Shown: one piece after another, positions 17,319 through 31,673 of the stretch
Numbering within the stretch: position 1 is the first letter of the stretch
Layout: every line of letters starts with the position of its first letter
IMG/VR virus record: IMGVR_UViG_3300031766_000029
Coordinates: 1 to 34,927 of that record
Reading direction: 5' to 3' (one strand)
Source of the DNA: a virus
Length of the DNA: 34,927 nt
Program-made: the position numbers and the translations under genes
The notes under the pieces: model-generated
What the model saw: the letters and a program-made list of their open reading frames with translations, nothing else
Database searches by the model: none
What the model was told of the DNA's origin: nothing

Positions 17319-17675
17319 ATGAAAACATTTAAAGATTACCTTACTGAAAGCCATAATGAATCTATAGATATCCAAAATCTATTAAACGAATCTTATGATT
17401 TAACAGAAGAGCAAGAAACTGCAATTGATAATGCAGTAGATAGAATTATGGAGGAACATAATAACGGAAAAGACTTAGAGGTTATTATGGAGGAAATAAT
17501 TAATGAAGGTATATTAGGATCTGTTTTAGGTGGTCTTACCGGTTTTGCTTTAGGTAAATCTGTAGGAAAGGCTATTGCAAAAGTACTAGGTATTCAAAAA
17601 GGAGCCTTGTATGATTTATTAACCAGTCGATTAATCGGTGCTGCATTAGGAGCAGTATTAGGTAAAAGACTCTAA
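17319..17675 (+). CDS. Capsid-targeted small protein with glycine-zipper membrane-active C-terminus
   Basis: The N-terminus MKTFKDYLTE|S is almost the T4 internal-protein targeting sequence MKTYQEFIAE|A. Residues 12-62 are acidic helix. Residues 64-118 abruptly become Gly/Ala/hydrophobic with GxxxG spacings (GSVLGGLTGFALGKSVGKAI and LIGAALGAVLGKRL), the mark of glycine-zipper membrane-inserting peptides. The junction is I-N-E63|G64, a good site for a gp21-type prohead protease, and another candidate is LNE24|S. Inferred role: packaged in the head, processed, and ejected as a membrane-active peptide. No exact family is recognised. Confidence 0.7.
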   Translation: MKTFKDYLTESHNESIDIQNLLNESYDLTEEQETAIDNAVDRIMEEHNNGKDLEVIMEEIINEGILGSVLGGLTGFALGKSVGKAIAKVLGIQKGALYDLLTSRLIGAALGAVLGKRL

Positions 17676-17685
17676 TCCATTATAA

Positions 17686-18360
17686 TTGATTTACTCAGGT
17701 ATAGATTTTTCTCTTAATAGTCCAGGTACATGTACACAGGACCATAAAGGCAAATACACATTTATTACATTCTTTAATTACGGTAATAGAATATGGGATG
17801 AAGAAGGTAGAAAGATACCGAAGTCCTTTTCGGTTCATAAAGAATTAATGGACGATAAAACAATATTAGGGTTTCCTTATTATAGACAAGTAAAGGATAA
17901 GGACTTTTTACTTAGGGAAAGAGAAAAACTCACAGATGGTCAAAACATAGCCGACTTAATTTCAAATATTTTAATAACATTATATGGAACAGAAAACCAT
18001 AAGATTGCACTAGAAGGTTTTTCGTATGGATCAAAAGGGAATTCATTCATTGACATTGTTCAGTATAATACATTCTTAAGAAATGAAATTGTAAATTCTT
18101 GGGGTGTAGAAAATATTTCAATTTACCAGCCATCACATGTTAAGAAATTAGCAGGTAAAGGTAATGCAAATAAACATTATATGGTTAAAGCATTCCAAGA
18201 CGATGTTTTTAACGATAAAGATTTAAGGAAAACTAAATTATGGAAATGGACTCAAGGTAAAGACTTTACAGAAAAGATCCCTAAACCAATAGATGACCTT
18301 GTAGATGCGTACTTTATATTAAATGCAAATAAAGAAAAAGGGTGGTCATTAAAAACTTAA
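17686..18360 (+). CDS. RuvC-like Holliday junction resolvase
   Basis: The start must be TTG at 17686: an in-frame TAA lies directly before it and there is no ATG nearby. The protein (224 aa) shows the RuvC/RNase H-fold acidic residues in order: SGIDFS (Asp7 on the first strand), KIALEGFSYGSKGN (Glu110), a lysine motif VKKLAGKGNANKHYMV (~152-167), and KPIDDLVDAYFIL (Asp203/204 and Asp207). This matches the RuvC-type resolvases of phages and bacteria, which cut Holliday junctions and branched DNA. T4 uses the unrelated endonuclease VII (gp49), so this is probably the functional replacement that resolves branches before packaging. It heads the replication/recombination block. Confidence 0.85.
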   Translation: MIYSGIDFSLNSPGTCTQDHKGKYTFITFFNYGNRIWDEEGRKIPKSFSVHKELMDDKTILGFPYYRQVKDKDFLLREREKLTDGQNIADLISNILITLYGTENHKIALEGFSYGSKGNSFIDIVQYNTFLRNEIVNSWGVENISIYQPSHVKKLAGKGNANKHYMVKAFQDDVFNDKDLRKTKLWKWTQGKDFTEKIPKPIDDLVDAYFILNANKEKGWSLKT

Positions 18361-18429
18361 TACATAGAATACCACTAAATACTTTAATGACTAGTAATTA
18401 CATACTTCTCTTTCTTTAATTTAGTATAT

Positions 18430-18440
18430 TTTATATATAG
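18430..18440 (+). promoter_or_regulatory. TTATATATAG promoter-like element in the 106-base gap before the GroES-like gene
   Basis: The gap 18361-18466 holds no gene. Its most distinctive part is TTAGTATATTTTATATATAG, about 27 bases before the ATG at 18467, which fits a promoter -10-like position with a short leader. No terminator hairpin is seen after the RuvC-like gene. Confidence 0.33.
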
Positions 18441-18466
18441 AAACCAGAACTTAGTTTCAGAATATT

Positions 18467-18733
18467 ATGATAAAAGCGATAAAAAATAGAATATTTATTA
18501 AAAAAGATGAATTACCAGAAAAAATCGGTAACATATATGTCCCAAAAACAGAAGGTCAGTATGCACCACCATATTCAGGTACTATCATTTCTGTAGGCGG
18601 TGACATAGAAGATCCGGATTATAAAGTAGGATCACGAGTACTATTCCACGACTTAGCAGGCACAGAGTTTAAATATGATGGCAATACCATATTCAGCATC
18701 AGAGAAAATGATGTAACCGCTATTATACAATAA
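18467..18733 (+). CDS. GroES-like co-chaperonin (functional analogue of T4 gp31)
   Basis: At 88 aa it is close to bacterial GroES (about 97). The GroES layout is visible: IKNRIFIKKDE at the first strand (GroES: PLHDRVIVKRKE), a short mobile-loop region (LPEKIGNIYVPKT, ending where GroES has GGIVL), SGTIISVGGDI (GroES: RGEVLAVGNG), YKVGSRVLFHDLAGTEFKYDG (GroES: VKVGDIVIFNDG) and a closing strand SIRENDVTAIIQ (GroES: ESDILAIVE). T4 gp31 replaces GroES on host GroEL so that the major capsid protein can fold; the same role is inferred here. It lies next to gp32, as an independent unit with its own upstream promoter-like site. Confidence 0.85.
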   Translation: MIKAIKNRIFIKKDELPEKIGNIYVPKTEGQYAPPYSGTIISVGGDIEDPDYKVGSRVLFHDLAGTEFKYDGNTIFSIRENDVTAIIQ

Positions 18734-18740
18734 AAAAGTT

Positions 18741-18763
18741 CTATTTAGACTGAAACTAAATAG
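18741..18763. other. Perfect 8-bp hairpin after the GroES-like gene
   Basis: CTATTTAG (18741-18748) and CTAAATAG (18756-18763) are perfectly complementary around a 7-base loop. On the + strand it is not followed by a T-run, so it is not a clear + terminator; on the - strand it is followed by AACTTTTTTA, which is terminator-like. It lies at the head of the 194-base leader of gp32 and may instead stabilise or regulate mRNA. Confidence 0.45.
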
Positions 18764-18767
18764 AGAT

Positions 18768-18783
18768 ATGAATATATAATAAA
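18768..18783 (+). promoter_or_regulatory. AATATATAA promoter-like element for gp32
   Basis: TGAATATATAATAAAC lies about 150 bases before the gp32 ATG. If it is the promoter, gp32 mRNA would have a leader of roughly 145 nt, long for this genome and consistent with translational control. Confidence 0.35.
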
Positions 18784-18818
18784 CAAAGGAACTGATATTA
18801 TTCAGCGACTTATAAACA

Positions 18819-18921
18819 GGCATATAACAAGGCAAAGTATATTGGCAATACCCGGGCAAATTAAAAATAGGCAGAGCTGCGTTATATCCACAATTAATAA
18901 CAAAGTAAAAATAAAAAGGCA
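18819..18921 (+). promoter_or_regulatory. GGCA repeat array in gp32 leader, candidate autoregulatory operator
   Basis: GGCA occurs at 18819, 18831, 18844, 18855 and 18870, that is every 11-15 bases, and again at 18918 just before the gp32 start. This G-containing repeat stands out against A/T-rich flanks. T4 gp32 represses its own mRNA by binding an unstructured leader nucleated at a pseudoknot. A repeat array in the same place could serve a similar purpose here, but this is inference. Confidence 0.35.
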
Positions 18922-18927
18922 ATTAAA

Positions 18928-19848
18928 ATGGCAAATGAATTCGACATTTTCAGTGTAAGCGTCAAGGACCTTGACACTGGAGACAGACCCGCACCAAGTA
19001 GCGATCTGTACACACCAAAACCCGACCAGGGAACTGACGGTACTTACCGTTCACTAATTAGGTTTCTTCCTAATGTAAAAAACCCACGTAAACCTTTCGT
19101 TCGTAAATATGTCTATTGGTTAGAAGATAGAGATGGCAACGGCTTCTACGTAGATTCACCTTCAACAGTTGGAGAGAAATGTGCAGTACAAGACATGTTC
19201 TTTAAACTTAGAAATTCTGAATCTGCTGTAGATAAAAAGATGTCAGAAGGACTGAAGCGTAGAGAAGTATTTTATGCATTAGTGCAAATCGTAAAAGATC
19301 CACAGAACAGAGATTTAGAAGGACAAGTTAAAATCATGAAATTTGGTTATAAGATTAAAACCAAAATTGATGAGGAATTAAATCCACAATTTGATGAACC
19401 TACTCAAGTATTCGATCCGTTTGAAGGAAAGAATTTTGAATTAGTAATTTCTAAGAAAGGTGGTTATCCTAACTATGATTCTTGTAAATTTCAAGGAAGT
19501 AAATCCGCTATGACGATTAACGAAGAAGCAGTAACTTCTGATGACGCAGGTAGAACTGCAATTCTTGATTTTATTAAGGATGCACCAGAGTTAGCAAACT
19601 TTGATTACCGTCCTTGGAATGATGAACAGCGAAATAAAGTAATGGGTGTACTTTCTCAATTTAGTAACCCAGGATCTTCTATTGAAACTGTTACTAAAAA
19701 GCAAGACGCACCAGAACCAGTAAAAGTAGCAGCCGCTGTATCGGCGGTAAATGAAGCTGCAGGATCTGCTGCACCAACTGCAACTAAAACTGAAGATTCT
19801 TCTAAAGGAGATGATTTCGATGATTTCATTAATGGTTTAGATCTTTAA
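18928..19848 (+). CDS. 32: Single-stranded DNA-binding protein, T4 gp32-like
   Basis: The 306-aa size matches T4 gp32 (301 aa). The central OB-fold region has the gp32-type basic/aromatic pattern (YRSLIRFLPNVKNPRKPFVRK, then YVYWLEDRDGNGFYVDSPST), and FDPFEGKNFELVISKKGGYPNYD is typical of gp32 relatives. The last 70 residues are a flexible Ala/Pro/Thr linker followed by an acidic tip (KGDDFDDFINGLDL), the tail through which gp32 recruits replication partners. Only two isolated Cys are present (in GEKCAV and YDSCKF), so the zinc cluster of T4 gp32 is absent. Primase, UvsY and UvsW follow, all gp32 partners in T4. Likely strongly expressed and autoregulated through its long leader. Confidence 0.88.
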   Translation: MANEFDIFSVSVKDLDTGDRPAPSSDLYTPKPDQGTDGTYRSLIRFLPNVKNPRKPFVRKYVYWLEDRDGNGFYVDSPSTVGEKCAVQDMFFKLRNSESAVDKKMSEGLKRREVFYALVQIVKDPQNRDLEGQVKIMKFGYKIKTKIDEELNPQFDEPTQVFDPFEGKNFELVISKKGGYPNYDSCKFQGSKSAMTINEEAVTSDDAGRTAILDFIKDAPELANFDYRPWNDEQRNKVMGVLSQFSNPGSSIETVTKKQDAPEPVKVAAAVSAVNEAAGSAAPTATKTEDSSKGDDFDDFINGLDL

Positions 19849-19852
19849 TAGT

Positions 19853-20926
19853 ATGGCAACAGAAGTAATAATATCTTCTGAAATGAAAGCTCGGATCATC
19901 GATAAGGTGGTCCGAGTTCTTCATACTAACCATTCTCATCCAGAAAAAAGAAGATTATTAGAAAGTAAAGAAAGATTAAATTTTGCATGTCCATATTGTG
20001 GAGATTCAACAGATAGTCCTAGAAAGAAAAGAGGAAATTTATACTGGAGCAATTTACAGTTTCATTGTTATAACTGCTCTGCTCATGAAAGTTTAGATGT
20101 TTTTCTTAAAGATCATAATGTAAACTTTGAAGGTGAAGATCGTATAGATGTAATTAATTTTATTAAAGAAAATAGAAAAAACTTTTCTTTAGGAGAAAGT
20201 TTAGAATTTCATTTATTTGAAATGGCTAATAAATTAGCATTAACATTTGATGAGGTTGCTTTAGGCTTTAATGTGTATCCTATAAATAGTTTAACATACC
20301 GAGCATACCCTTATTTAAAAAGTAGATTACTTCATCATAAAACTGAAAGATTCGGTTATGACCCAAGAAGAAAAGAACTATATGTATTTAATCTTAATTC
20401 CAAAGGAAACATTATAGGTTTTCAAGTTAGAGCATTAGATGATAATAGCGGTCCTAAATATAAAACATGGAATATAGAAAGAATATATGACAGGCTTAAA
20501 AAACCTTTAAATATAACTGAAGAAGAACTAGATTCTTTAAACAAAATATCAATGATCTTCGGTATACTAACAACAGATTTGAGTAGACAGTTCACGGTAT
20601 TTGAAGGTCCTATTGATTCATTCTTTATGTCAAATACCATTGGTCTTACTGGTGTTAAAAAACAAATATTGGATTTTGATGATATACCTACCGTTAGATA
20701 TTTCTTTGATAATGATATTGAAGGTAAATCAAAAATGATCCAAAAACTAAAAAGAGGTAATACTGTTTTTATGTGGCAAAAGTTTTTAAAGGATTTTAAT
20801 ATTCCTTCAAAAAAGGTAAAGGATTTAAATGACTTAGTTAAGTATGAATTTAAACATAGAACAGGGTGCTTGCATGAGTTGGATAAATATTTTACAAACA
20901 ATCATTTAGATCTTATATTTATATGA
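19853..20926 (+). CDS. 61: DNA primase, T4 gp61-like
   Basis: The gene starts 4 bases after gp32. Residues 46-75 form a primase zinc ribbon (CPYC at 46-49, CYNC at 72-75) for template recognition. The middle contains the primase core (LYVFNLNSKGNIIGFQVRAL). TOPRIM motifs follow: EGPID (Glu251, Asp255) and FDNDIEGK (Asp286, Asp288), the metal-binding acidic residues for RNA primer synthesis. Length (357 aa) is close to T4 gp61 (342 aa). It would prime lagging-strand synthesis with a gp41-type helicase, which is not in this window. The stop overlaps the next ATG (ATGA at 20923). Confidence 0.87.
   Translation: MATEVIISSEMKARIIDKVVRVLHTNHSHPEKRRLLESKERLNFACPYCGDSTDSPRKKRGNLYWSNLQFHCYNCSAHESLDVFLKDHNVNFEGEDRIDVINFIKENRKNFSLGESLEFHLFEMANKLALTFDEVALGFNVYPINSLTYRAYPYLKSRLLHHKTERFGYDPRRKELYVFNLNSKGNIIGFQVRALDDNSGPKYKTWNIERIYDRLKKPLNITEEELDSLNKISMIFGILTTDLSRQFTVFEGPIDSFFMSNTIGLTGVKKQILDFDDIPTVRYFFDNDIEGKSKMIQKLKRGNTVFMWQKFLKDFNIPSKKVKDLNDLVKYEFKHRTGCLHELDKYFTNNHLDLIFI
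19890..19916 (+). other. Hairpin within the first codons of the primase gene
   Basis: CTCGGATCATC (19890-19900) can pair with GGTGGTCCGAG (19906-19916) over 11 bp including two G-U pairs, with a 5-base loop, followed by the T-rich TTCTTCAT. A smaller hairpin (CAGAAG/CTTCTG, 19860-19880) lies just before. Together they could lower read-through or translation from abundant gp32 into primase. This is structural inference only. Confidence 0.4.
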
Positions 20927-21138
20927 TAAAAAATTACAACAATTTTGTGACTGAACAATTTGATGATTTTTATAATGATTTAGCAATCTCTAAAAAGAAG
21001 CTTAAATTATTTACTAAATTTAAAAAGATTAAAACTGATGATGTAAAAACAACCTTTACATTACCGCAACCTAAGAAAAGGTTTCAGCCAAAGATTAAGC
21101 AGTACAAAAAGATTAATAACGATAAAGGAATATTTTAA
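20923..21138 (+). CDS. Small basic protein with capsid-targeting-like N-terminus (internal-head-protein candidate)
   Basis: This 71-aa protein begins MIKNYNNFVTE|QF, matching the T4 targeting pattern (aromatic, two residues, Phe-Val/Ile-x-Glu). The remainder is strongly basic (KKKLKLFTKFKKIK, KKRFQPKIKQYKK), like the small basic internal proteins of T4 heads. It overlaps primase by ATGA and uvsY by TAATG, so it is translated within the replication operon. T4 has no such protein here. A packaged DNA-binding or host-directed protein is inferred; alternatively it is a small replication accessory factor. Confidence 0.65.
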   Translation: MIKNYNNFVTEQFDDFYNDLAISKKKLKLFTKFKKIKTDDVKTTFTLPQPKKRFQPKIKQYKKINNDKGIF

Positions 21139-21587
21139 TGGCATTTGATGATACACAAATAAAAGAGGCTAATGAACAATTAGAACTTAGATTAGGTTCT
21201 GATAGGAATGATTGGAAAGCAAAAATCAAAGATCTTGTTTCTAAGCTAAAAAACATGAATGAATTAGCAGAGTGCCAAGTAAGAATGCTTTCATACCGGC
21301 AAATCTTATTAGACAAAGTAACTGATTTTAAGACCACCATATATAAAAGGAATGCTACTTGGGACAGGTATTATAAGAACCAATATCGAGAGTATTCAGT
21401 TAACTATGATGTTAAACTAACTAATGGCGAAAAGCATCAATTTATAAAAGCCGATCTGTCTTCTTTAAAAACTCAGATTGACATGTTACAATCACATATA
21501 GATTATTACTATGAATGTATTAAGACTTTAGATAACATGGCATTTGCAATAAGAAACAGAATAAACTTAGATGATAAGGAATTTTAA
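21138..21587 (+). CDS. uvsY: Recombination mediator, T4 UvsY-like
   Basis: At 149 aa it is close to T4 UvsY (137 aa). It is mostly helical and charged, with a UvsY-like middle and end: a polar strand region (YSVNYDVKLTNGEKHQFIKAD), then a long helix with YYYECIKTLDNMAFAIRNRI, matching in place the T4 end where a helix precedes the IKSRGFAIKHI segment. UvsY loads the UvsX recombinase on gp32-coated DNA. Adjacency to UvsW, gp32 and primase strongly supports the call. It shares TAATG overlaps with both neighbours. Confidence 0.75.
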   Translation: MAFDDTQIKEANEQLELRLGSDRNDWKAKIKDLVSKLKNMNELAECQVRMLSYRQILLDKVTDFKTTIYKRNATWDRYYKNQYREYSVNYDVKLTNGEKHQFIKADLSSLKTQIDMLQSHIDYYYECIKTLDNMAFAIRNRINLDDKEF

Positions 21588-23089
21588 TGGAACTATCTCT
21601 GTCTGAAAATAAAAAGTTTTTAGTAATTGATTCATGTACCGAATTGGAATATGAACAGTTAAAATCTAGTCTTACTAAGAAAATAGAAGGTTGGCGGTTC
21701 CACCCTTTAGTAAAGAAAAAGGTATGGGATGGTAATATTTCGTTTATTAAAAGAAATAAAATTCCGGCAGGGTTATGGAAAGAAGTTATAGACATCTGTA
21801 AACAATATGATTATCAATTTACACTAAATGGCATAACTGATATTTTTGATACTTCGATAGATGAAGATATGTTTAGAGGTTGGGTAGATGAATTTTTTGC
21901 AAAGTCTGAAATTAAACCTAGAGATTATCAGATTGATGCTGCAATTAAAATTTTAAAATATAGAAGGTGTTTAGCTGAATTGGCAACGTCTGCAGGTAAA
22001 ACTTTAATTTCATTTATGGTGGTTGCTTATATGATGGAACAATTAGGCAAAAAGAAAATCTTAATGATCGTGCCTAATGTAAGTTTAGTAGTTCAGGCGA
22101 GTGGAGATTTTGAAGAATATAATAAAGGCAGAGTACCTATTAAGATTCAACAAATTTATGCAGGAGTTAAACTAAGAAAGAGTTCTAATATAGTTATAGG
22201 TACTTATCAATCATTAACTAAAAAAGACGAGGAATACTTTAGCCAATTTGATGCAGTATTTGTAGATGAAACTCATAAAGCAAAAGCAAATTCAATCCAA
22301 AAGATAATGGATAAATGTTGGCACTGTGATTATAGATTTGGTTTAAGTGGTACTATACCTAAAAGAGGAACTGTAAATAGACTTAGTTTAATGTCGGCAA
22401 TGGGCCCACTAGTAACTCAAGTAAAGGCTGCTCATTTACAGGAAGAAGGTCATATTGCAAAATGTAAAGTTTTACAGATCCACATGGAATATGCAACCGA
22501 TGCACAAAAAGAAGCATTCTCATCTCTGTCTAAAAATCCGTATGATAGACAAAAGCTATTTAGTTTAGAACAAAACTTTATTAACGAAAGTGAAAAGAGA
22601 CTAGACTTCGTTTGTCAGGTAATTAAAAAATCAACATCCAACTCATTAGTCTTATTTCATAAAATAGCATACGGTGAAAAACTATATCAAAAGCTTAGAA
22701 CAATAACAGATAAAAAAGTCTATTATGTTGACGGTTCTGTTAAGTCTGATTTTAGAGAAGAGTTTAAAAAGAGAATGGAAAAGAATGATGATGTTATTAT
22801 TGTAGCATCATACGGAACATTCTCAACAGGTATTTCAATTAAAAACATTCATAACATTTTCTTTACTGAATCATTTAAATCAGAAGTAATTATCAGACAG
22901 TCAATAGGTAGAGGTTTAAGAAAACATGAAGCCAAAGATGTTGTAAAAATATATGACTTCATTGACGATTTTAGATATAAAGTAGATGATCATGACTGGG
23001 TAAATTATATCTATAGACACGGTATGGAAAGAAGAAAAATATACAAGGAAGAAAAGTTTCCTTTTGAGGTACAAAATGTAAGGTATTAA
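21587..23089 (+). CDS. uvsW: DNA/RNA helicase, T4 UvsW-like (superfamily 2)
   Basis: The 500-aa length equals that of T4 UvsW (about 503). SF2 motifs are in order: a Q-like region PRDYQIDAA (111-119), Walker A ATSAGKT (133-139), motif Ia IVPNVSLV, motif II DETH (227-230), motif III SGT (254-256), motif V around SYGTFSTGISIKN (408-420) and motif VI RQSIGRGLRK (437-446). The N-terminal ~100 residues form the small UvsW-specific DNA-binding domain. UvsW unwinds branched DNA and R-loops and switches T4 from origin- to recombination-dependent replication. It follows uvsY with a TAATG overlap and is the last gene of the replication block. Confidence 0.92.
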   Translation: MELSLSENKKFLVIDSCTELEYEQLKSSLTKKIEGWRFHPLVKKKVWDGNISFIKRNKIPAGLWKEVIDICKQYDYQFTLNGITDIFDTSIDEDMFRGWVDEFFAKSEIKPRDYQIDAAIKILKYRRCLAELATSAGKTLISFMVVAYMMEQLGKKKILMIVPNVSLVVQASGDFEEYNKGRVPIKIQQIYAGVKLRKSSNIVIGTYQSLTKKDEEYFSQFDAVFVDETHKAKANSIQKIMDKCWHCDYRFGLSGTIPKRGTVNRLSLMSAMGPLVTQVKAAHLQEEGHIAKCKVLQIHMEYATDAQKEAFSSLSKNPYDRQKLFSLEQNFINESEKRLDFVCQVIKKSTSNSLVLFHKIAYGEKLYQKLRTITDKKVYYVDGSVKSDFREEFKKRMEKNDDVIIVASYGTFSTGISIKNIHNIFFTESFKSEVIIRQSIGRGLRKHEAKDVVKIYDFIDDFRYKVDDHDWVNYIYRHGMERRKIYKEEKFPFEVQNVRY

Positions 23090-23102
23090 TATAGAATATC
23101 TT

Positions 23103-23152: not shown

Positions 23153-24685
23153 ATGAAACCAATTAAAAAGTTTTCACTGATGGCTAAAGCTGATGATTCA
23201 ATTAATGAATCGGCTGACCCAAATCATGATGCTGTAATGGATCTAGTTAAAAAGATGGGTTACGAAAGTGTCGAAGAATTAAAGAAAGAAAAAAATCTTT
23301 TAACTAAATTAGAAGGTTTATTAAAAGATGTTTCACCAAAGGACGATATTTCTGAGGATGAACTTGAAGAAGATAGAGCCGAAGATATAGCTGATGAAGT
23401 TAAAAAGAAAGGTGAACCTAAATCATTAGAATCTGAAGAAGATAAAGATGAAGATAAAGTTGGTACCGATGGTGAAGTTGCTGAAACTGATGAAGTTGAA
23501 GAAGACTCTGCAAAAGATATTGAAGATGAAGTATTAGCTAAAGGCGAACCTAAAGATGTAGAAGATAAGGCAGGTGATAAGGTATCTGATGATCCTGAAA
23601 TTACCGCTGAGGTTCCTGCTGAAGCTGATGAAGTTGAAGATGAGGAAGGTGTTGAGGTTGCTGCTGAAGAAGAGGAAACTCCGGCTGCTACAAAAAGAAT
23701 TATGGCTTTCGAAGATTTCATTAAAGAAAAAGAAGTTACAATAAATAAGAATGTCAAATATCACGATGATGATGAAGAGAAAGAAGACTATTCTGTTGTT
23801 GCTGCATCTGCCGATGCTATTTCTGAGGATGATGAAGATAAAGGAATGGAAGATGAAAAAGAAGGAGATGAGTTAGAAGACAAAGGTGATAAGAAAGTTG
23901 ATTCTGAAGATGACAAAGAAAAGGCTGACCATTATAAAGGAGCTGTAAAATCTGATGACTCCGAAATTGATGCATTAAAGAAAGATGCTGAATATGATGA
24001 AGAAGAAGAAAAGAAAGATGAATCAAGAATTATGTCTTTTTCAAATTTTGTAACTGAATCGTATGATGAAGAAGAAGTAGAAGAAGAAGAAGAAATAGAG
24101 GCTGAAGAAGAAGCTGTAGAAGAAGCGGTAGGTGAAGTAATTACTAAAGTTACCGGTGATGAAATTGCTGATGAAGAAGCTGGTGATGATGGCCTTGCTA
24201 TTCCTGCAGAAAAAGGCGACGGTTCTGAAACTGCTGCTGGTATTGCTGGTGATATAATGGATATGGGTAAAGTAAAAGTACAACCTGAATCAAAAGGCGA
24301 AGAATTAGTTACTAAAGACCAAAAGATTACAACTGAAGTAAAAGGTGAAGCTGATGATCTTAAGGATGCTACTGAAGTTCCTGCAAAAATGGGAGATGGT
24401 TCTGAATCTGCCGCAGGTATTGCTGGAGACATAATGAATATGGGTAAAGTAAAAGTTCAGCCAGAAGCAAAAGGTGCTGCATTAGTTGGAGAAGCTAAGA
24501 TTACAGAAAAAGAAATTACTTCTGCTGATGAATTTAAAGAATATGCAATGGCAATTCTAAAAGATGCATTCGGAGATGATTTTGATGAAACTAAAGCAAC
24601 TGAAACTGCTGATGGATTAATTAAGAAGTATGGTGAAGATTACGGCGCAATGGTCGGAGCTTTACAATCTACTATGGGATCATAA
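23153..24685 (+). CDS. Very acidic repeat protein with internal targeting-like motifs (prohead core-like)
   Basis: The 510-aa protein is dominated by Glu, Asp, Lys and Ala, with long acidic runs, as in T4 prohead core proteins (gp22, gp67). N-terminal MKPIKKFSLMAKADDSINES weakly fits the targeting motif. Two better copies are internal: RIMAFEDFIKE (about 182-192) and RIMSFSNFVTE|S (292-302). Repeats: residues 72-93 versus 116-137, and 354-386 versus 413-445 (GDGSE-[ST]-AAGIAGDIM core). A compact end (residues ~456-510) looks folded. It may be a scaffold or a polyprotein cut by the prohead protease into several internal fragments. No catalytic motif is present. Confidence 0.78.
   Translation: MKPIKKFSLMAKADDSINESADPNHDAVMDLVKKMGYESVEELKKEKNLLTKLEGLLKDVSPKDDISEDELEEDRAEDIADEVKKKGEPKSLESEEDKDEDKVGTDGEVAETDEVEEDSAKDIEDEVLAKGEPKDVEDKAGDKVSDDPEITAEVPAEADEVEDEEGVEVAAEEEETPAATKRIMAFEDFIKEKEVTINKNVKYHDDDEEKEDYSVVAASADAISEDDEDKGMEDEKEGDELEDKGDKKVDSEDDKEKADHYKGAVKSDDSEIDALKKDAEYDEEEEKKDESRIMSFSNFVTESYDEEEVEEEEEIEAEEEAVEEAVGEVITKVTGDEIADEEAGDDGLAIPAEKGDGSETAAGIAGDIMDMGKVKVQPESKGEELVTKDQKITTEVKGEADDLKDATEVPAKMGDGSESAAGIAGDIMNMGKVKVQPEAKGAALVGEAKITEKEITSADEFKEYAMAILKDAFGDDFDETKATETADGLIKKYGEDYGAMVGALQSTMGS
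23366..23563 (+). repeat. Direct coding repeat in acidic protein (22-aa unit, two copies)
   Basis: Residues 72-93 and 116-137 share the pattern EED-x-A-x-DI-x-DEV-x-x-KGEPK, encoded at 23366-23431 and 23498-23563. The copies are diverged at the DNA level, so this is an old duplication. Confidence 0.7.
24212..24487 (+). repeat. Direct coding repeat in acidic protein (33-aa unit, two copies)
   Basis: Residues 354-386 and 413-445 (24212-24310 and 24389-24487) match at most positions, with the shared core AAGIAGDIM-x-MGKVKVQPE. The strong conservation suggests a functional unit, for example a packing or interaction motif in the prohead core. Confidence 0.8.
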
Positions 24686-24705
24686 TAAAAACAAAAACTA
24701 AAGAT

Positions 24706-25140
24706 ATGGGTAATATAAAAAAGTTTGCGGATTTCGTAAATGAAAACTTAAATGAAGCTGAATTACCATCATGGGTTGAAGGCGGTCCTTATGACTCCCT
24801 CAAAGATATGACAGGTAATATTGATCTTGATGGAATGACAGTAGCGGATATTAATAAAAATTACCAACCAGCTTTAAAATATTTAGGAGTAAAATCTATT
24901 GCTGATATGGGATATCTTTCAAGTACTGCTAATGATGATGAATTGTATGATATTGTTTCGCCTCAAATGAAAGGTTCCAACCTTCTTGGTAATGATAGAG
25001 GGAAAGGAATGGATCCATCACCATACACAGCTGCTTATAAAGGAATGCTAGGAGACGTAAAAATAATTATAGTACAAGATATTAATCAAGAAAATAGTTA
25101 TGCATACGCTGCGGTTGATTCTAGAGGAAACCTTAAATAA
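24706..25140 (+). CDS. Small protein with capsid-targeting-like N-terminus (144 aa), unknown function
   Basis: The start MGNIKKFADFVNENLNE|AEL carries the aromatic-x-x-F-[VI]-x-E pattern, then L-N-E17|A18, a good gp21-type cleavage site. The remaining ~127 residues look like a small folded domain with an acidic helix and a final beta pair (DVKIIIVQDINQENSYAYAAVD). It has no membrane segment or recognised motif. It sits between the acidic core-like protein and the first ligase-like gene with gaps of 20 and 8 bases, so it is probably co-transcribed. Inferred to be head-packaged; activity unknown. Confidence 0.68.
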   Translation: MGNIKKFADFVNENLNEAELPSWVEGGPYDSLKDMTGNIDLDGMTVADINKNYQPALKYLGVKSIADMGYLSSTANDDELYDIVSPQMKGSNLLGNDRGKGMDPSPYTAAYKGMLGDVKIIIVQDINQENSYAYAAVDSRGNLK

Positions 25141-25148
25141 ACATAAAC

Positions 25149-26420
25149 ATGAAACATATAAAATTGTTTGAACAATGGCTGGCCGACAAAAGCCAGCCAT
25201 TTCTTTTTGAAGGAGGTGCCGCTGGTCACATGGCCCATCCATTTGACGATAAAGATTTAACCTTTGGTGATTTTAAGGCAATGATAGATGCTGGTCTTAG
25301 AGGTGAATTAAACTTTGAAGAAGATGCTACTGAAAAGACCGATGGCCAAAATGCATTTGCTACTATCCAAGACGGTGAAGTTAAATTTGCAAGAAACAAA
25401 ACAGAGTTAAAGAATCCAATGACTCTTTCTGAATTTAAGAATAAATTTGAAGGGCATCCTAGTAAATTAGTACAAGATACTTTTCAATTTGCTGCACAGG
25501 ATTTAGCTAGGTTGCTAATGGCTCTTTCTCCAGCTGACCAAGAAAAATATTTTAAGAATGGAAAAGACTTTATGAACATGGAGTTAATCTATTCACAAAA
25601 CCCTAATGTTATTCATTATGATACAGATGTAATTCAATTTCACGGGATAAAGGAAACTGATGGTAACGGTAACATTACAGGCACTAATAATAAACCTGCA
25701 AAAGAAATTGCAGATATACTTAAAAAGGTACAATCAGATATTGGTAAAACTTTTAAAATAATTCCACCTAGAGTTATTAAATTACAAAAAGATTTGGATT
25801 TTACCACAAACAAGAAAAGATTTATAAACCAAGTTAACGCATTAGAAAAAAGATACGGTTTAACTGATAGCGATGAAGTTGCTAAATATCACGAAATGTG
25901 GTGGAGAGAATTAATTGATAAACAATTCCCTACATTATCTCAAGATGTAAAAGAAGGTTTACTTAAGAGATGGGCGTACGGCGATAAGAAGAGTTTAAAT
26001 ATGAGATCTCTTGCTAAACAAATTGGACCTAAAGAAGCTGCACTAGTTAAAAAGTTTGACAAAGAAGATGTTGCTAAAAAGTATAAAGAAAACATTAGAC
26101 CTTTTGAAGATCTGTTCTTAGAATTAGGATCTGTGATTCTTAAAAACGCATCTGACTTTTTAGCAGCTAATCCATCCGATGAAGCACAAAGGCTAAGAGC
26201 TCAAATACAAACAGCAGGAAGTAAAATTAAAAAGACTGGTGGGGCTGATCAAGTAAGAAAGGTAGAAGCTGAACTAGCAAGGCTTGATAGAATTGGTGGA
26301 ATAGAATCTATATTTCCAACTGAAGGAATAGTATTTAAATACAAAGGAAAGATTTATAAACTTACTGGTACATTTGCTGCAATCAATCAATTGTTAGGTA
26401 TCATTAAGTTCGGTAGGTAA
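25149..26420 (+). CDS. Polynucleotide ligase-like nucleotidyltransferase with capsid-targeting-like N-terminus
   Basis: Ligase-superfamily motifs are visible in order in 423 aa: motif I EKTDGQN (Lys63 would carry AMP), RN-containing FARNKTEL (80-87), motif III-like FMNMELIY (141-148), motif IV TEGIVFKY (391-398) and motif V YKLTG (403-407, Lys404). A ~240-residue helical insert separates III from IV, which is unusual. The N-terminus MKHIKLFEQWLADK resembles the targeting motif and is followed by LFE21|G22, a possible prohead-protease site that would leave the enzyme intact. Substrate (RNA, DNA or other) cannot be told. It may be a packaged repair or end-sealing enzyme. A terminator follows the gene. 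Confidence 0.75.
   Translation: MKHIKLFEQWLADKSQPFLFEGGAAGHMAHPFDDKDLTFGDFKAMIDAGLRGELNFEEDATEKTDGQNAFATIQDGEVKFARNKTELKNPMTLSEFKNKFEGHPSKLVQDTFQFAAQDLARLLMALSPADQEKYFKNGKDFMNMELIYSQNPNVIHYDTDVIQFHGIKETDGNGNITGTNNKPAKEIADILKKVQSDIGKTFKIIPPRVIKLQKDLDFTTNKKRFINQVNALEKRYGLTDSDEVAKYHEMWWRELIDKQFPTLSQDVKEGLLKRWAYGDKKSLNMRSLAKQIGPKEAALVKKFDKEDVAKKYKENIRPFEDLFLELGSVILKNASDFLAANPSDEAQRLRAQIQTAGSKIKKTGGADQVRKVEAELARLDRIGGIESIFPTEGIVFKYKGKIYKLTGTFAAINQLLGIIKFGR
25175..25209 (+). terminator. Terminator-like hairpin inside the 5' end of the ligase-like gene (possible attenuator)
   Basis: ATGGCTGGC (25175-25183) pairs perfectly with GCCAGCCAT (25192-25200) over an 8-base loop, followed by TTCTTTTT. Six of nine pairs are G-C, exceptional in this AT-rich genome. 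It has the form of an intrinsic terminator yet lies in codons 9-20 of the coding region, so it would act as an attenuator if active. Confidence 0.5.
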
Positions 26421-26435
26421 ATAGTAGATACACCT

Positions 26436-26503: not shown

Positions 26504-26506
26504 GAT

Positions 26507-26535: not shown

Positions 26536-26553
26536 ATATAGCTATTTAATCAA

Positions 26554-26566
26554 AGAATATATAAAT
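26554..26566 (+). promoter_or_regulatory. AATATATAA promoter-like element
   Basis: AGAATATATAAATTG lies just after the terminator and 20-30 bases before the ATG at 26587. Its position between a terminator and the next start makes this one of the better promoter candidates; the same core precedes the genes at 17319, 18928 and 33950. Confidence 0.42.
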
Positions 26567-26586
26567 TGACAATATAAAATAAGCAA

Positions 26587-29500
26587 ATGAAAGAGTTAAC
26601 TCAAATTTATAAAGATGCAGGCCAACAATTAATAGAAGATCTTTTTAAGGATTATCTTATAGTATCCGAAAAACTATCAGGTTCTTCATTTTCATTTAAA
26701 AAAGACGGTGAAGGAATTACTTTTTATAAAGGTGGAAACCAAAAACCTATTAACTTAATTGATAGGACTATAATGGTTTATTATGAAAAGCCTATTAATT
26801 TTATAAAATCTGTAACCAGCAAAAATCTTTCTTCCATTCCTGAGAATTGGAAGTTCTGTTTTCAATATTTTGTAAATACTAATCCTGGTATTATTACTTA
26901 TGATAGGCTACCTAAAAATAATTTAGTACTTACTCATATTAAAGTAATGACACCAGCTGGTAAAGTTACAAAGGTTATAGAAGATCCTAGGGTAATTAGA
27001 GACTGGGCAAACGCACTAGGTGTTACTCCACTACTTCCATTATTTAAAGGTTACTTAACAGAAGATCAAAAGAAAAAGATTAAAGAATTTTTAGAAACGC
27101 CAAAAGAAGATCATGCTGAGATTTTTAGTACTAATTCATTTGCTGAATATTTACTTAGAATTCTAAATCCTAATATTCAATCAACGACTTTACAAAACGA
27201 TCTTAAGAAGCCTATAGAATCTATTGTATTTAAATTTTACAAATCTGGTACTAAACAAGTTATTGCTGCTAAGTTAATAGATCCTTATACAATTAATTTA
27301 ATGAAAGAAAAGGAACCTATAGATATGAGAAAGGCTCCTGCTGATATTAATGAAATTATTTTATTGGATCTTTTAGCATTTATAGAAGAAAGAGGAATTA
27401 AGAAGCATGAGATTTTAGGGGATGGTGAAGATATGAGATACATAGAATTAGTTTCAAATATATTTAATGACTATGTAACTAAAAGAGGGAAAGATATTGC
27501 AAAGATTGATATTGAAAAAGCTGAGTTTGCTAAAGGTAAAGAATTTGATTTAAATGTAGAATTAATACCAAGCCAAAGAACTAAAGATATCCTTAACAGT
27601 AACCCTAAGCTAAAAGACTTGTTTAAAATAATGTTAGGCTCTTTAAAAAAGAAAAGAAAGAACACTGGTAATATTATGACGCCATCAGTTGTTGAAGATT
27701 TTAATAAAATGGTAGATAAAGTAACCGATGTAATTCAAACAAAAGATGATGGTAAATTTAAAACCTTTGATGATTACTTAAAAATCAAATCAACCAATGA
27801 ATCTCTTTTACCTAACGCTGAAGAACTATTAATTGAAGATAAAGTTTTAGACTATAACAACTTTATTAATTTAGGTAAAGTTATTGTAGAAGATAATAGA
27901 AAGAGTGGTGAAATTTGGAAAACCTCAACAGGGTTTAGAGGACAGGATGCTAACGGTGATAGAAAAACATTTAAGTCTAAAGAACAGACTCAATCGTGGA
28001 TAAAAACCGGAAGAGAGGATGTTGATAAAGAACCTACTGAGAAAACTGAAGATTTTGATATTTCTAAAATTGATAAAAAGAAAAGTCCTGCTGCTTTTGA
28101 TATAGCAAAAGACATAGATAAAATTGAAGATCCAAAACAAAGAGAAGAGGCTAAATCATTTGTTAAGAATTTAACAGATTATGAAATGGCTGAACCGGGT
28201 TCACCTGAAAGAAAAAAGGCTTTAGAGAAATTCTTTGAAGAAGGTGGTATTAATAGAAATGCGTTAGGAACTGATACAAATAAATTTTATGTAGGCCAAT
28301 CTGATGAGTATGAAGGTTCAGGTAGAGGTAATAGGTTTAATAAGAAAACAGGTTTATCATATAGTAAAGCTTTTACTAAAGGCCAAACTGCTAAGATGAT
28401 GGCTGATGCTGAAGAACTAGGAGTTTTAATTCCTATGCAAAATGGAATACCAAGAACTAATGGAAAAAGATTAGCACCTACAAATGTTCATACTGATTCA
28501 AAAGGAAAAAAACCTAAAGCAGTTGCTGTAAAGGTTTCTAAAATAGAACCTAAAGGAAAACCCGGTGATAAAGACTATGATCCAGGTGGTGTTAAGATTG
28601 GTGGTGAGAATGGTGTAGAGATGAAAAACACTCCTCCTATGACTGAAGGCCAAAGGGCTGACCTAAAAGAAAAATTTAAAAAGGCAAAACCTAATGCAAC
28701 AGAAGAAGAGATTAATAGATATGTTGCTATTAATGAAACTTTTAGAGAACAAAATAATCAAAAGATTAAAGACATACAAGAAAAAGAATTAACTATAATT
28801 CCTATTTTGGACGAAAATGATCAAGAGATAGATGTTTTTACAAAGGACGGTCAAAAGAAAGCGGTTAAGGCTGTTTCTAAAAATGTAACAGGTAAGGTTA
28901 AAGAAATATTAAATTCTCCACCAAAGATAACACCGTCACCAGATTTACAAAAAGCTTTGGATGATTTTGATACAGCTGCATCTGATTTTGCAGATGGTAA
29001 AATAACACAAAAAGAATTTAAAAAACAAATGGATGATACTTTATTAGAAATGATAAATGATCCTCATACTAGGCCAGGTATGCCAGACTTAGTAGAAACA
29101 TTTGCTATGATGGAAGATTTGAGCGAAGGTAGAGCATCAGTTTCTCCAGATGCTGCAAACTTTGCATTAGCTGATATAATAACATTTGATCCTGCTGAAC
29201 TACCACCAAACGCCACACCTGAAGAAGTAAACAAACATATTAATGTTATGACAACTTCAAGTGGTAGTCGTTCAATTAAATTTGAAGCAGGTGGAGCTAG
29301 CCAATCAAGTAATAAAATAGATGCAACAGAATATGCTGACTTTAATGATAAGATTAAAGGCGCAGAAATAAAATCAGATTTACAAGATTTAACAAATAAG
29401 CAATATGATGACATTTACAATGTACAAGAAGAGCCGCCGTTTAAAACATTAGAAGGAGTAACTAATAATGCCAAAAGCTTAGCTAAAAAATATGATGTAG

Positions 29501-30036
29501 ATTTAGAAGGTTTAGATCCACTTAGTGATAAGAAGAGGGCGGTTTATGAAAAGCGTGCTGATAAGAAAATGGTAGGTAATGTTATTAAAGAATATAAAGA
29601 AAAAGGTATTGACTTAAGTGAAGATGATGCTAAAGATTTATTAGTTAGGAGATGGACTGCAATGGATATGAATGGTAAAATAATGCAAGAGGTTAATAAC
29701 AAACAACAGATGTCTCAATCATTTACCAACCGTTCTTATAATACTGATCCTGCTGATGCAGGTACATCTAATCCTGATAATCCAGAAGTTATGAAAGATG
29801 AAGATGGTAAGCCAATAGTAATTTTAGACATGGAAGGTAATCCTAAGTTAAAGAATGGAAAGAAACAGTATAGGAGAAAACAGAAAATGAAAATAAAAGA
29901 AACAAATGGAGTTTCTGATATGGCTTGTATGAATTATGCTGATAACCCAGGCTTTAGTAAAACAGGAAAGCCTACAAATAAAATGCCAGCCAGAGTTGTT
30001 AATTGTAAAGATAGCAATAAGTGGCTAGGTTCTTAA
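26587..30036 (+). CDS. Large multidomain protein with N-terminal RNA-ligase-2-like nucleotidyltransferase domain
   Basis: The N-terminal ~300 of 1149 residues look like a ligase-type domain. SEKLSGSSFSF (Lys29) parallels motif I of T4 RNA ligase 2 (EKIHGTNFS), CFQYFVNT (91-98) sits where motif III should be, ESIVFKFY (211-218) looks like motif IV and AAKLIDP (Lys229) like motif V. Motif III lacks the usual acidic residue. An internal targeting-like FKTFDDYLKIKSTNES lies at 391-406, followed by LLIED. The remaining ~700 residues are Lys/Glu/Asp-rich, helical and low-complexity, and they read as several modules. It could be a polyprotein or giant head-core protein carrying an enzyme. Catalysis is uncertain; the C-terminal part is unrecognised. 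Confidence 0.7.
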   Translation: MKELTQIYKDAGQQLIEDLFKDYLIVSEKLSGSSFSFKKDGEGITFYKGGNQKPINLIDRTIMVYYEKPINFIKSVTSKNLSSIPENWKFCFQYFVNTNPGIITYDRLPKNNLVLTHIKVMTPAGKVTKVIEDPRVIRDWANALGVTPLLPLFKGYLTEDQKKKIKEFLETPKEDHAEIFSTNSFAEYLLRILNPNIQSTTLQNDLKKPIESIVFKFYKSGTKQVIAAKLIDPYTINLMKEKEPIDMRKAPADINEIILLDLLAFIEERGIKKHEILGDGEDMRYIELVSNIFNDYVTKRGKDIAKIDIEKAEFAKGKEFDLNVELIPSQRTKDILNSNPKLKDLFKIMLGSLKKKRKNTGNIMTPSVVEDFNKMVDKVTDVIQTKDDGKFKTFDDYLKIKSTNESLLPNAEELLIEDKVLDYNNFINLGKVIVEDNRKSGEIWKTSTGFRGQDANGDRKTFKSKEQTQSWIKTGREDVDKEPTEKTEDFDISKIDKKKSPAAFDIAKDIDKIEDPKQREEAKSFVKNLTDYEMAEPGSPERKKALEKFFEEGGINRNALGTDTNKFYVGQSDEYEGSGRGNRFNKKTGLSYSKAFTKGQTAKMMADAEELGVLIPMQNGIPRTNGKRLAPTNVHTDSKGKKPKAVAVKVSKIEPKGKPGDKDYDPGGVKIGGENGVEMKNTPPMTEGQRADLKEKFKKAKPNATEEEINRYVAINETFREQNNQKIKDIQEKELTIIPILDENDQEIDVFTKDGQKKAVKAVSKNVTGKVKEILNSPPKITPSPDLQKALDDFDTAASDFADGKITQKEFKKQMDDTLLEMINDPHTRPGMPDLVETFAMMEDLSEGRASVSPDAANFALADIITFDPAELPPNATPEEVNKHINVMTTSSGSRSIKFEAGGASQSSNKIDATEYADFNDKIKGAEIKSDLQDLTNKQYDDIYNVQEEPPFKTLEGVTNNAKSLAKKYDVDLEGLDPLSDKKRAVYEKRADKKMVGNVIKEYKEKGIDLSEDDAKDLLVRRWTAMDMNGKIMQEVNNKQQMSQSFTNRSYNTDPADAGTSNPDNPEVMKDEDGKPIVILDMEGNPKLKNGKKQYRRKQKMKIKETNGVSDMACMNYADNPGFSKTGKPTNKMPARVVNCKDSNKWLGS

Positions 30037-30052
30037 TATTAATTTAATAAGA

Positions 30053-30072
30053 GTGAATAAATAAAAAAAGTG
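30053..30072 (+). promoter_or_regulatory. Late-promoter-like 20-mer, copy 2
   Basis: This is an exact copy of the 20-base element at 5583-5602, 3 bases before the ATG at 30076. The same element before a structural gene and before the NMNAT-like gene suggests both are expressed in the late programme. Confidence 0.4.
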
Positions 30073-30075
30073 TAC

Positions 30076-31446
30076 ATGGATAATCTAAAAAATATACAAG
30101 ATTTTATAACAGAAAAAAGAGTTACTGTTAAGAGGAGATATACTGAAAAGCATCCAGCTAAAAATGTATCTACTGCTGCCAGGGTTCGTTCTGCTATTTT
30201 AGATGCTGTTGCTGATGGACATTTAACTGAAGATGAGGTTAACAATATCTTATCTGAAATAAAGGCTCACAAAAGATGGCTTAAAAGAAATGTAGGATTA
30301 TTTAATATCAGTGAAGATGAGACTGGGATTAAGAGATATTCCTTATCTCCTTATGGTCATAGAGTAAGAACTGCAACTGCTCCACTTAATGAAGCTTTAA
30401 AAGTTCCTCATAAAGAACAAGGTAAGAAAAAGGTTAATATGTTTGTTGGTAGATTCCAACCTTTTACATTAGGTCATGTTAAAGTATTTGAAAAAATGTA
30501 TAAAGAAAATGGAAAACCTGTAGTTGTATTTTTAGTTAGAGGAAAAAACAACGATCCTGAGAAAAGACCGTTTGATGAAGAAATGCAACAAGCAATGTTT
30601 GCTAAGATGGCAAAACAATATCCATTTTTAGAAACTGCTATTGTAGTTCCTAATGGTTCAATTGACACGATGTTTGCAGCAGCAAGGCCAGCATATGAAC
30701 CTGTGATGTGGGGATATGGAACGGATAGAAAAAAATCATACGGTGCAATGATTGACAAACAATCATACCGAGATCAATTAGGAGTAGATCCTGATTTTAA
30801 AGGTTTTGAGATTTTTAGAACTGATGATAACATTTCAGCATCTAAAGTTCGTAATGCATTAAAGATAGATGATGAAAAGACTTTTAAGAAAATGACTCCT
30901 AAAAGCATACATAGTTTTTATAAACCATTACAAAATATATTAGAACCAATAAAAGAAAATAACAATATGAAAAATTTAAAATCACTAACAAGTTTTAGCA
31001 TTGACGAATCTTTGAATGAAGGTAAAAAAGCTAAAGCAAAAAACCCTAATAAAGTAAACACTATAGATGTTGATTTATCTGGAGACGATTCAGATATAAT
31101 GGATGCAATTAAATCATTTAATCTAAAGGTTAAATCTAACGGAGCCAATAAAGGAACTGGGTATGATATGACAGGTAAAAATAAAGATATTCTTGATTAT
31201 TTACAAAGTGACTATTATGCATTAGATGCTAGAGATATTGAGGATATGTTTCCAGAATTATTAGAAGGTGAAATCAATGAAGAGTATATTGAATTAATGC
31301 CTGGGATGGAAGAAGGGTTAGAACAAATAGTAGAAGGTTGGATAGAATGGAAAGGCGGCCCTGCAACAGAAAAGACTGACATTGCTCCAGCAAGAAAAGA
31401 ATTATTAAACTTTTGTACAACTTATTTAAAAAAGAATATTAAGTAA
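30076..31446 (+). CDS. NMNAT/HIGH-superfamily nucleotidyltransferase with capsid-targeting-like N-terminus
   Basis: I chose ATG 30076 over the in-frame GTG at 30070, because it gives MDNLKNIQDFITE|K, fitting the shared motif. A basic helical pro-region is followed by L-N-E106|A, a likely protease site, then the catalytic domain. GRFQPFTLGH (125-134) is the HxGH-type nucleotide motif and ISASKVR (253-259) the ISxTxxR motif, as in NadM/NMNAT enzymes that make NAD from NMN and ATP. Residue 298 begins a second targeting-like copy (MKNLKSLTSFSIDESLNE|G) leading a separate C-terminal domain that ends in acidic helices. The reaction is inferred from family; related cytidylyl- or adenylyltransferases share these motifs. 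Confidence 0.8.
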   Translation: MDNLKNIQDFITEKRVTVKRRYTEKHPAKNVSTAARVRSAILDAVADGHLTEDEVNNILSEIKAHKRWLKRNVGLFNISEDETGIKRYSLSPYGHRVRTATAPLNEALKVPHKEQGKKKVNMFVGRFQPFTLGHVKVFEKMYKENGKPVVVFLVRGKNNDPEKRPFDEEMQQAMFAKMAKQYPFLETAIVVPNGSIDTMFAAARPAYEPVMWGYGTDRKKSYGAMIDKQSYRDQLGVDPDFKGFEIFRTDDNISASKVRNALKIDDEKTFKKMTPKSIHSFYKPLQNILEPIKENNNMKNLKSLTSFSIDESLNEGKKAKAKNPNKVNTIDVDLSGDDSDIMDAIKSFNLKVKSNGANKGTGYDMTGKNKDILDYLQSDYYALDARDIEDMFPELLEGEINEEYIELMPGMEEGLEQIVEGWIEWKGGPATEKTDIAPARKELLNFCTTYLKKNIK

Positions 31447-31673
31447 TGTCTAAAGACGTAAAGGAAAATGAAGCAGGTACTGTTGGCCTAAATCCTAATA
31501 TGAATGTACAGGGCATGGGAGCAGTTGAGCTTCCTGGCGATCCTGGTTCTGCAAATTCTTTTGCTACACAAAAGGTTGGCAGTGGTGATGATCCTGAAGG
31601 AAAAAAGAAAAAGAAAAAGAAAATGTTACTTCTATCATTTGATAAGTACATGGAACTTTTAAAATCAAAATAA
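31446..31673 (+). CDS. Small protein with Lys-run and targeting-like C-terminus (75 aa)
   Basis: TAATG overlaps the NMNAT-like stop. The first 50 residues are Gly/Pro/Asn-rich and probably disordered (GMGAVELPGDPGSANSFATQ, GSGDDPEG). Seven lysines follow, then MLLLSFDKYMELLKSK, whose SFDKYME resembles the targeting motif (F-x-x-[FY]-[ILM]-E) but sits at the C-terminus. The layout suggests a head-core or cargo-adaptor peptide rather than an enzyme. The A-rich Lys codons include A-AAA-AAG in frame, a classic slippery heptamer, discussed separately. Function is unknown. Confidence 0.65.
   Translation: MSKDVKENEAGTVGLNPNMNVQGMGAVELPGDPGSANSFATQKVGSGDDPEGKKKKKKKMLLLSFDKYMELLKSK

Follow-up and report, generated by a model that had tools for sequence, protein, structure and literature searches.

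A probable T4-type capsid targeting leader marks a candidate set of packaged enzymes in a virus fragment and its phage relatives

The IMG/VR virus record IMGVR_UViG_3300031766_000029, analysed as a whole (34,927 bases, a fragment by its gene content, and called the window below), encodes several unrelated proteins that begin with the same kind of short leader. Very probably this leader is a capsid targeting sequence (CTS) of the phage T4 type that marks packaged cargo. Because a T4-like tag sits on unrelated proteins and tagged enzymes are found in related virions, we read the leader-bearing phages as probably carrying an enzyme kit into the cell together with their DNA. A co-packaged cargo set, larger and more enzymatic than that of T4, had been proposed in an initial annotation of the window, and is supported by the recovery of T4 internal proteins with the leader profile, by a prohead protease in relatives, by separate recombination of leader and body, and by mass spectrometry (MS) of cyanophage virions.

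The leader profile and its distribution

In T4 the ten N-terminal residues suffice as a CTS; targeting depends on positions 4 and 7 and processing on positions 8 and 10, and Asp at position 10 stops processing but not targeting (PMC9026906). The T4 internal proteins are a highly diverse set in which only the CTS is conserved (PMC3012670). (Here and below, statements from the literature draw on the accessible parts of the papers cited.)

A position-specific profile was built from 52 leaders of uncultured phage LR756500.1 (W02; 462 kb, the closest relative of the window in the phages collection) and of the records G002, G003 and G004. The window, its close clade, G001, G006 and T4 were held out of training. 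The seeds were those 52 of 59 matches to the expression aromatic-x-x-aromatic-[LIVM]-x-[ED] in these four records that have Lys, Arg or His near the start, so that conservation of the columns named in the expression is by construction. The freely varying columns are informative too: Lys, an aromatic or basic residue, Ile/Val and Lys lie ahead of the core, acidic residues between its aromatics, and Asn before the Glu. The resulting long-leader consensus is MKxIKxFExF[IL]NE, with the core pattern aromatic-x-x-[FYW]-[ILV]-x-E inside the first 13 or so residues. The genes scored were the longest open reading frames (ORFs) with ATG starts rather than curated calls, and the cut-off of 7 bits (3 bits in the S-CREM2 detection test described below) was chosen after the scores had been seen.

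Applied to T4, the profile places gp61.1, IPIII, IPII and IPI at the top of 263 ORFs; the chance of finding the three internal proteins (ranks 2-4) among the top four is 1.3e-6, although IPI, at 6.0 bits, is level with 46.2 and below the cut-off. The expression was derived from window N-termini picked with T4 in mind, so T4 was held out from the training and not from the idea. Also in T4, gp61.1 (L202:18966-19130; 18.4 bits) resembles a tagged protein, as does the end of the annotated uvsW frame (L204:14677-16440), which scores 23 bits and which we take to be the separate gene UvsW.1.

Four of the 27 window ORFs are leader-positive, where the internal rate would predict 0.06. Pooling seven records gives 84 of 1493 against about 2.3 expected (G001 8/217, G002 14/223, G003 12/155, G004 6/101, G006 5/83, G000 4/27, W02 35/687); 67 of these 84 belong to the four training records. 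In the leader-bearing records the N-terminal rate lies about 23- to 86-fold above the internal rate, and the 462-kb phage W02 alone has 35 leader-positive proteins. Searched as a DNA pattern in 17 phage records, the long leader gave 47 matches in six (G001-G004, LR756500.1 and LR756504.1) against one for the reversed-pattern control; the short T4-type pattern gave 14 matches in eight of the same 17, against three for its control.

Leader proteins of the window

The features discussed are as follows (genes are named below by their first position; a hyphen marks the junction after a Glu).

17319..17675, + strand: 118-residue protein; leader MKTFKDYLTE (17319-17348), variable spacer, INE-G (17499-17507), then a glycine-rich hydrophobic domain
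20923..21138, + strand: 71-residue protein upstream of UvsY; leader MIKNYNNFVTE; a less certain member
23153..24685, + strand: 510-residue protein of 32% Asp+Glu, with two conserved internal leader copies besides a degenerate leader at the N-terminus
23708..23728, + strand: internal leader copy FEDFIKE in 23153, from profile score and homologue alignment
24038..24058, + strand: internal leader copy FSNFVTE-S in 23153, from profile score and homologue alignment
24706..25140, + strand: 144-residue cargo cassette in a hypervariable slot; leader MGNIKKFADFVNENLNE followed by Ala (24706-24756)
25149..26420, + strand: ATP-dependent ligase-like enzyme; leader MKHIKLFEQWLAD (25149-25187), spacer, LFE-GG (25203-25211) at the onset of conservation
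26587..30036, + strand: 1149-residue protein in the cargo module with no leader of its own; RNA-ligase-like N-terminal motif EKLSGSSF, recognized by eye
30076..31446, + strand: cytidylyltransferase/NMNAT-like enzyme (PF01467); weak leader MDNLKNIQDFITE
31446..31673, + strand: 75-residue protein; residues 4-50 match the N-terminal arm of the relatives' major capsid protein; worn C-terminal leader (31635-31655)

The leaders above the cut-off are those of 25149 (20.3 bits), 17319 (16.2), 20923 (14.6) and 24706 (10.1). The residues matching those needed in T4 (Y, F, I and E at positions 4, 7, 8 and 10) are present in 17319, 20923 and 24706, and in 25149 with Asp for Glu; family alignments of the window leader proteins retain the required residues. 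The initial annotation, whose coordinates and reading frames were correct on re-checking, had counted a fifth leader N-terminus in 30076, which is weak: its -2.3 bits are reached by 2% of internal stretches and alone are not significant. It had also noted LxE- or IxE-type sites before Ala, Gly or Ser downstream of the motif. Such sites do occur in 17319 (INE-G), 24706 (LNE-A) and 25149 (LFE-G); taken as a general second site, [LI]xE[AGS] shows only a weak rise in density over the 30 residues that follow a leader (8/2070 versus 24/9775 residues).

Gene 17319 has 79 leader-positive homologues in which the leader and the NE-G junction are kept and the spacer varies. The domain after NE-G (about 55 residues) is conserved, glycine-rich and hydrophobic, and could insert into a membrane upon delivery. 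For 20923, 49 homologues are leader-positive, and the protein at its position in LR756500.1 has a degenerate N-terminus. In relatives the slot of 24706 is either empty or holds unrelated bodies with similar leaders. As members of the cargo set, 20923 and 30076 are less sure than 17319, 24706 and 25149.

Among the relatives of the ligase-like protein 25149 (80 of 564 were retained) the residues of the EKTDG, EGIVF and KLTG motifs are invariant or nearly so in 18 sequences. Its predicted model has a mean pLDDT (predicted local distance difference test) of 73, with residues 1-27 below 50. No PDB sequence-profile match was obtained, and the best fold matches are RNA/DNA ligases at E 0.08 or worse, which is not significant; a likeness to Syn9 gp183, seen by eye, was likewise not significant (E 0.11) and was dropped. 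A [LIV]xE-GG junction is kept in the relatives of 25149 behind a spacer of about 5 to 17 residues, which is suggestive only of LFE-GG as a second cleavage site. A leaderless fused protein of Mel-JY01 retains IAE-GG and LR756508.1 is without it; the junction stretch may therefore belong to the fold. Homologues of the adjoining protein 26587 were found in the phages collection in only six uncultured records, of 462-735 kb.

Two phages have cytidylyltransferase and ligase-like domains in one fused protein, Mel-JY01 and, with the domains combined differently, LR756500.1 (L127:11243-13162, L128:9298-11259), which hints at joint action. The fused ligase-cytidylyltransferase of LR756500.1 has no leader.

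The motif had further been reported inside 23153, 26587 and 30076 and at the C-terminus of 31446. The copies in 23153 are real: they score 18.1 bits (residue 186) and 8.0 bits (residue 296) and are conserved in close acidic homologues amid a diverging protein, being absent or different in more distant ones. From its composition and repeated copies, 23153 is a candidate core protein or internal-peptide precursor. The claimed copies in 26587 (5.8 bits without the Glu, 0.5 and -5.4) and in 30076 (-4.4 bits) found no support, and 26587 was rejected as a leader protein; one other stretch in it (residue 168) reaches 8.8 bits and is without the motif's second aromatic residue.

The C-terminal copy in 31446 scores only -6.8 bits, and appears to be a worn form of a leader that is clear at the corresponding place in four of the seven homologues compared (L026 10.0, W02 17.2, G002 24.4 and G003 13.8 bits); among the others L035 has 6.2 bits, and L041 and L005 have none. 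In this family the leader that goes with the arm-like stretch is C-terminal or comes after it. In the 31446 protein the copy of the capsid arm, with 57% identity to the gp23-like proteins of W02 and G001 along 47 residues, is followed by a lysine run and the worn leader. A different C-terminal element was seen in W02, where 12 of the 35 leader-positive proteins end in a NADDFGFxDN-like tag (for example L168:13446-14282) as against none of 652 leader-negative ones (p=4e-17, though the 12 fall into 3 body clusters only). A looser form of this tag pattern also picks one leader-negative repeat protein ending YADDFGLI.

Other T4-like genes of the window encode a tail-tube protein (16741), a RuvC-like protein (17686), a GroES-like protein (18467), gp32 (18928), primase (19853), UvsY (21138) and UvsW (21587), besides the cytidylyltransferase (30076). 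No head genes were seen within the 34,927 bases. LR756500.1 keeps the gene order of the window, with UvsY, UvsW, one leader protein, ligase, the fused ligase-cytidylyltransferase and then more leader proteins.

Exchangeable bodies, the head protease and cyanophage virions

The proteins behind the leader are diverse. The 340 leader-positive proteins of the seven records and of the ORFs of loci L001-L081 (to which were added locus proteins scoring at least 10 bits from alternative Met starts) fall into 69 body clusters, similarity being judged at BLASTP E 1e-3 only. Representatives range from 49 to 683 residues and include acidic proteins and enzymes. Most of those scanned singly matched no family, and Pfam or PHROG names came out for few bodies: Acb1, which acts against CBASS (cyclic oligonucleotide-based antiphage signaling system; G002 3684, with no PDB sequence match), a DUF2201 metallopeptidase (W02 200318), ATP-grasp (W02 254760), leucine-rich repeats (W02 13446) and an AAA_33 ATPase with weak similarity to polynucleotide kinase (G003 19114). 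Matches to PNK3P, RNA ligase and HNH that could not be assigned to individual proteins are given no weight here.

The interval from 23153 to 25149, which contains 24706 in the window, is empty in some relatives and holds one to three small genes in others; each of these bears a leader, apart from the first one in L051 and overlapping frames of 50 residues in L011-L014. Of the small genes that relatives have further on, before 26587, roughly half are leader-bearing; these lie downstream of 25149. At the DNA level, leaders (51 bases) are 67-94% identical in pairs of genes whose bodies are at chance level (22-39% ungapped); identities of 90-94% are found for L002 or L005 against L006 or L014, and for L006 against L014. 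The converse also occurs: the window and L002 have bodies identical over 99 bases behind leaders that are 82% identical. Leader and body thus recombine separately, at the DNA level.

A T4-type leader should go with a protease of the gp21 family, and the possibility that a homolog lies elsewhere had been raised. Such a protease (S77, PF03420) is encoded in 4 of 14 fragments of relatives and in all three named relatives; the window is without the head region. In the five head clusters (G001-G004 and W02) the portal belongs to PHROG 213. Three of them (G002, G003 and G004) have between portal and protease an acidic leader protein of 113-123 residues (25-32% Asp+Glu), whose leader scores 19.2, 29.6 and 24.4 bits, respectively, with Ser for Glu in G002; in T4, gp67 and gp68 occupy this place. 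G001 has a leader protein directly after gp23. Directly after the leader Glu position, 33 of the 69 body-cluster representatives have Ala, Gly or Ser, compared with 19% after [LIVM]xE elsewhere (p=6e-8). Two prohead proteases (L091:18182-19903 and L114:17458-19458) are long, with 573-666 residues of which 17-23% are acidic, and no separate scaffold gene was seen before gp23 in these clusters. A new fusion was considered and rejected, as PHROG 207, a head-protease family of 519 positions, matches residues 7-469 in G001 and 2-365 in G003; judged by this match, the long protease is at least partly a known form.

Are tagged enzymes found in virions? Among cyanophages, 30076 has a distant homolog in the cytidylyltransferase T4-GC190 (Syn9: 28% identity over 159 residues, E 3e-8 against a set of 24 proteins), which bears the leader in P-SSM2 (15.9 bits), Syn9 (12.8) and S-SM1 (14.9; MKKFSAFLNE-A). 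T4-GC190 was found in virions of S-SM1 (PMC3037559), and a cytidylyltransferase in those of S-SZBM1 (PMC9146016 Table 1; leader MRFRQFIIE, 10.8 bits), S-CREM2 (PMC10665884 Table 3; 13.1 bits) and S-SCSM1 (PMC9602691; 17.9 bits). The virion-detected enzyme therefore carries a leader in all four phages examined, a set that leaves aside S-CBWM1, likewise named in PMC9602691.

Of the 210 ORFs of S-CREM2, the cytidylyltransferase and the SAM hydrolase, both detected in virions, have the two highest scores. A kinase scores 8.8 bits at its annotated GTG start (KRFDAFLTEE), and a Cas9-like nuclease 9.5 bits near residues 17-19 (LRFASFMAEA). Of the six non-structural virion proteins, the motif is thus on all four non-lytic enzymes (13.1, 9.1, 9.5 and 8.8 bits) and on neither endolysin. 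Six of the eight ORFs scoring at least 3 bits within the first 34 offsets were detected by MS, compared with 50 of 211 overall (p=0.003); 51 or 50 of the 52 virion proteins were matched to ORFs, depending on the analysis. At the 7-bit cut-off two cyanophages have few leader-positive ORFs (2/210 and 3/240). A run of adjacent virion-detected genes in S-CREM2 (L224:7704-13331), encoding the Cas9-like nuclease, a small protein, the kinase and another small protein, has leader-like peptides at or near the starts, those of the two small proteins being weak (3.2 and -9.7 bits); by its sequence this may be a cyanophage cargo island.

In the papers covered (most subscription papers and bioRxiv preprints lie outside), and within their accessible text, no packaging signal for virion-associated cyanophage enzymes was described, and only PMC9026906 joined capsid targeting with cyanophages. 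The virion data make the link to T4 more than a resemblance.

Weighing the readings, and what the leader means

Several results weigh against a packaging tag. The leader of 25149 ends in WLAD, with Asp in place of the last-position Glu, and Asp there blocks cutting in T4, though not targeting. Mel-JY01 has one leader-positive ORF in 250 (0.29 expected) despite encoding the protease, and one of the W02 proteins counted as leader-positive, the UvsX-like 245619 (11.8 bits), is probably a chance match. The long-leader DNA pattern was absent from 11 of the 17 phages, including three huge ones, phiKZ and crAss001. G001 and W02 have no leader protein between portal and protease. In S-SZBM1 only one of three leader-positive ORFs is in the MS list as accessible, and the top scorers, ORFs 191 and 192, are missing from it. 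The authors of the S-CREM2 study suggest encapsidation but also allow for carry-over from CsCl purification (PMC10665884). Finally, a test for enrichment of the T4 late-promoter sequence TATAAATA upstream of leader genes was negative for W02, G001, G002, G003 and T4 alike (in W02, 1 of 35 leader genes versus 22 of 648 others).

The last two points, together with the position of the window leader genes among replication genes (UvsY, UvsW, gp32), would fit a leader that is an intracellular localization or partner-binding peptide, for instance for a replication compartment, with the virion detections as contamination. We consider this very unlikely, as the same profile finds the T4 internal proteins, the residue after the Glu follows the Ala/Ser preference of the protease site, and a tagged enzyme recurs in four virion proteomes. 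A better case, still an unlikely one, can be made for a leader that addresses only the prohead core, so that its bearers would be assembly factors or core parts degraded or retained rather than delivered. Such a role agrees with the acidic leader protein that three head clusters have between portal and protease, and with the acidic 23153 and its repeated copies, but the bodies that could be named are mostly enzymes, many of the small bodies occupy slots which relatives leave empty, and tagged enzymes were detected in cyanophage virions. Shared ancestry, the leader being the N-terminus of one spreading gene family, is the least credible explanation: some clusters are indeed large families, such as nine similar W02 proteins with leucine-rich repeats, but the 69 clusters have no BLAST similarity to one another at E 1e-3 (a cut-off blind to more distant homology), and leader and body recombine separately.

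The extent of the window's set is a different matter. That only 24706, 25149 and 17319 are cargo, the motif-like N-termini of 20923 and 30076 being due to chance, is a possibility to be taken seriously if not the one we favor. It agrees with the low score of 30076 and with LR756500.1, where the counterpart of 20923 is degenerate and the fused ligase-cytidylyltransferase leaderless. Against it, the cyanophage homologs of 30076 have strong leaders and are virion proteins, and 20923 has both a score well above the cut-off and its many leader-positive homologs.

The CTS reading, which we favor, makes this a variant of the capsid targeting system known from T4, strongly expanded and rich in enzymes. 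The variant shares with IPI, IPII and IPIII an N-terminal propeptide of 10-19 residues with the same key positions, a gp21-family protease, a constant leader in front of diverse bodies, and acidic core neighbors (PMC9026906, PMC3012670). It differs from T4 in having up to 35 tagged proteins per genome, of which several are enzymes and not small basic proteins, in its longer leader, in the internal and C-terminal copies, and in its occurrence in unclassified and huge phages. The cyanophage virion enzymes (cytidylyltransferase/NMNAT, SAM hydrolase, APH/ChoK-like kinase, Cas9-like nuclease) have the same leader and come from purified virions; cyanophages differ in their few tagged proteins per genome. 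Giant phages of the phiKZ/SPN3US type are alike in that head proteins are cut by a prohead protease and proteins are ejected with the DNA, according to the accessible literature; unlike in the leader-bearing phages, phiKZ gave no match to the long or short leader pattern.

Tagged proteins would dock on the acidic prohead core during head building, and a gp21-family protease would then cut after the leader Glu, preferably with Ala or Ser next; the freed cargo would be sealed in and delivered together with the DNA. The tag would be modular, usually N-terminal but sometimes internal (23153) or C-terminal (the 31446 family), and swapped between unrelated bodies in hypervariable slots. The cargo of the window lineage would include a ligase-like nucleotidyltransferase and a cytidylyltransferase, and that of its relatives an anti-CBASS protein resembling Acb1, an AAA_33 ATPase, a metallopeptidase and proteins with leucine-rich repeats. 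For the window phage itself we infer that cargo is packaged, cut and ejected, and that it acts on repair and defence at an early stage of infection.

The tag turns the published puzzle of metabolic enzymes in cyanophage virions into a testable rule: proteins that bear it are predicted to be the packaged ones. In T4 itself, gp61.1 and UvsW.1 are suggested as additional tagged proteins. We also lean, with some reserve, towards a broader view: one packaging code readable from sequence would span T4-like phages (coliphage, cyanophages and huge phages of 460-640 kb), preloading swappable repair (ligase-like) and anti-defence (Acb1, SAM hydrolase, Cas9-like) enzymes so that counter-defence precedes phage gene expression, and in LR756500.1 the C-terminal tag NADDFGFxDN would be a second one, marking a subset of the cargo. 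For uncultivated and huge phages the tag offers a simple means to list delivered effectors, anti-defence proteins among them.

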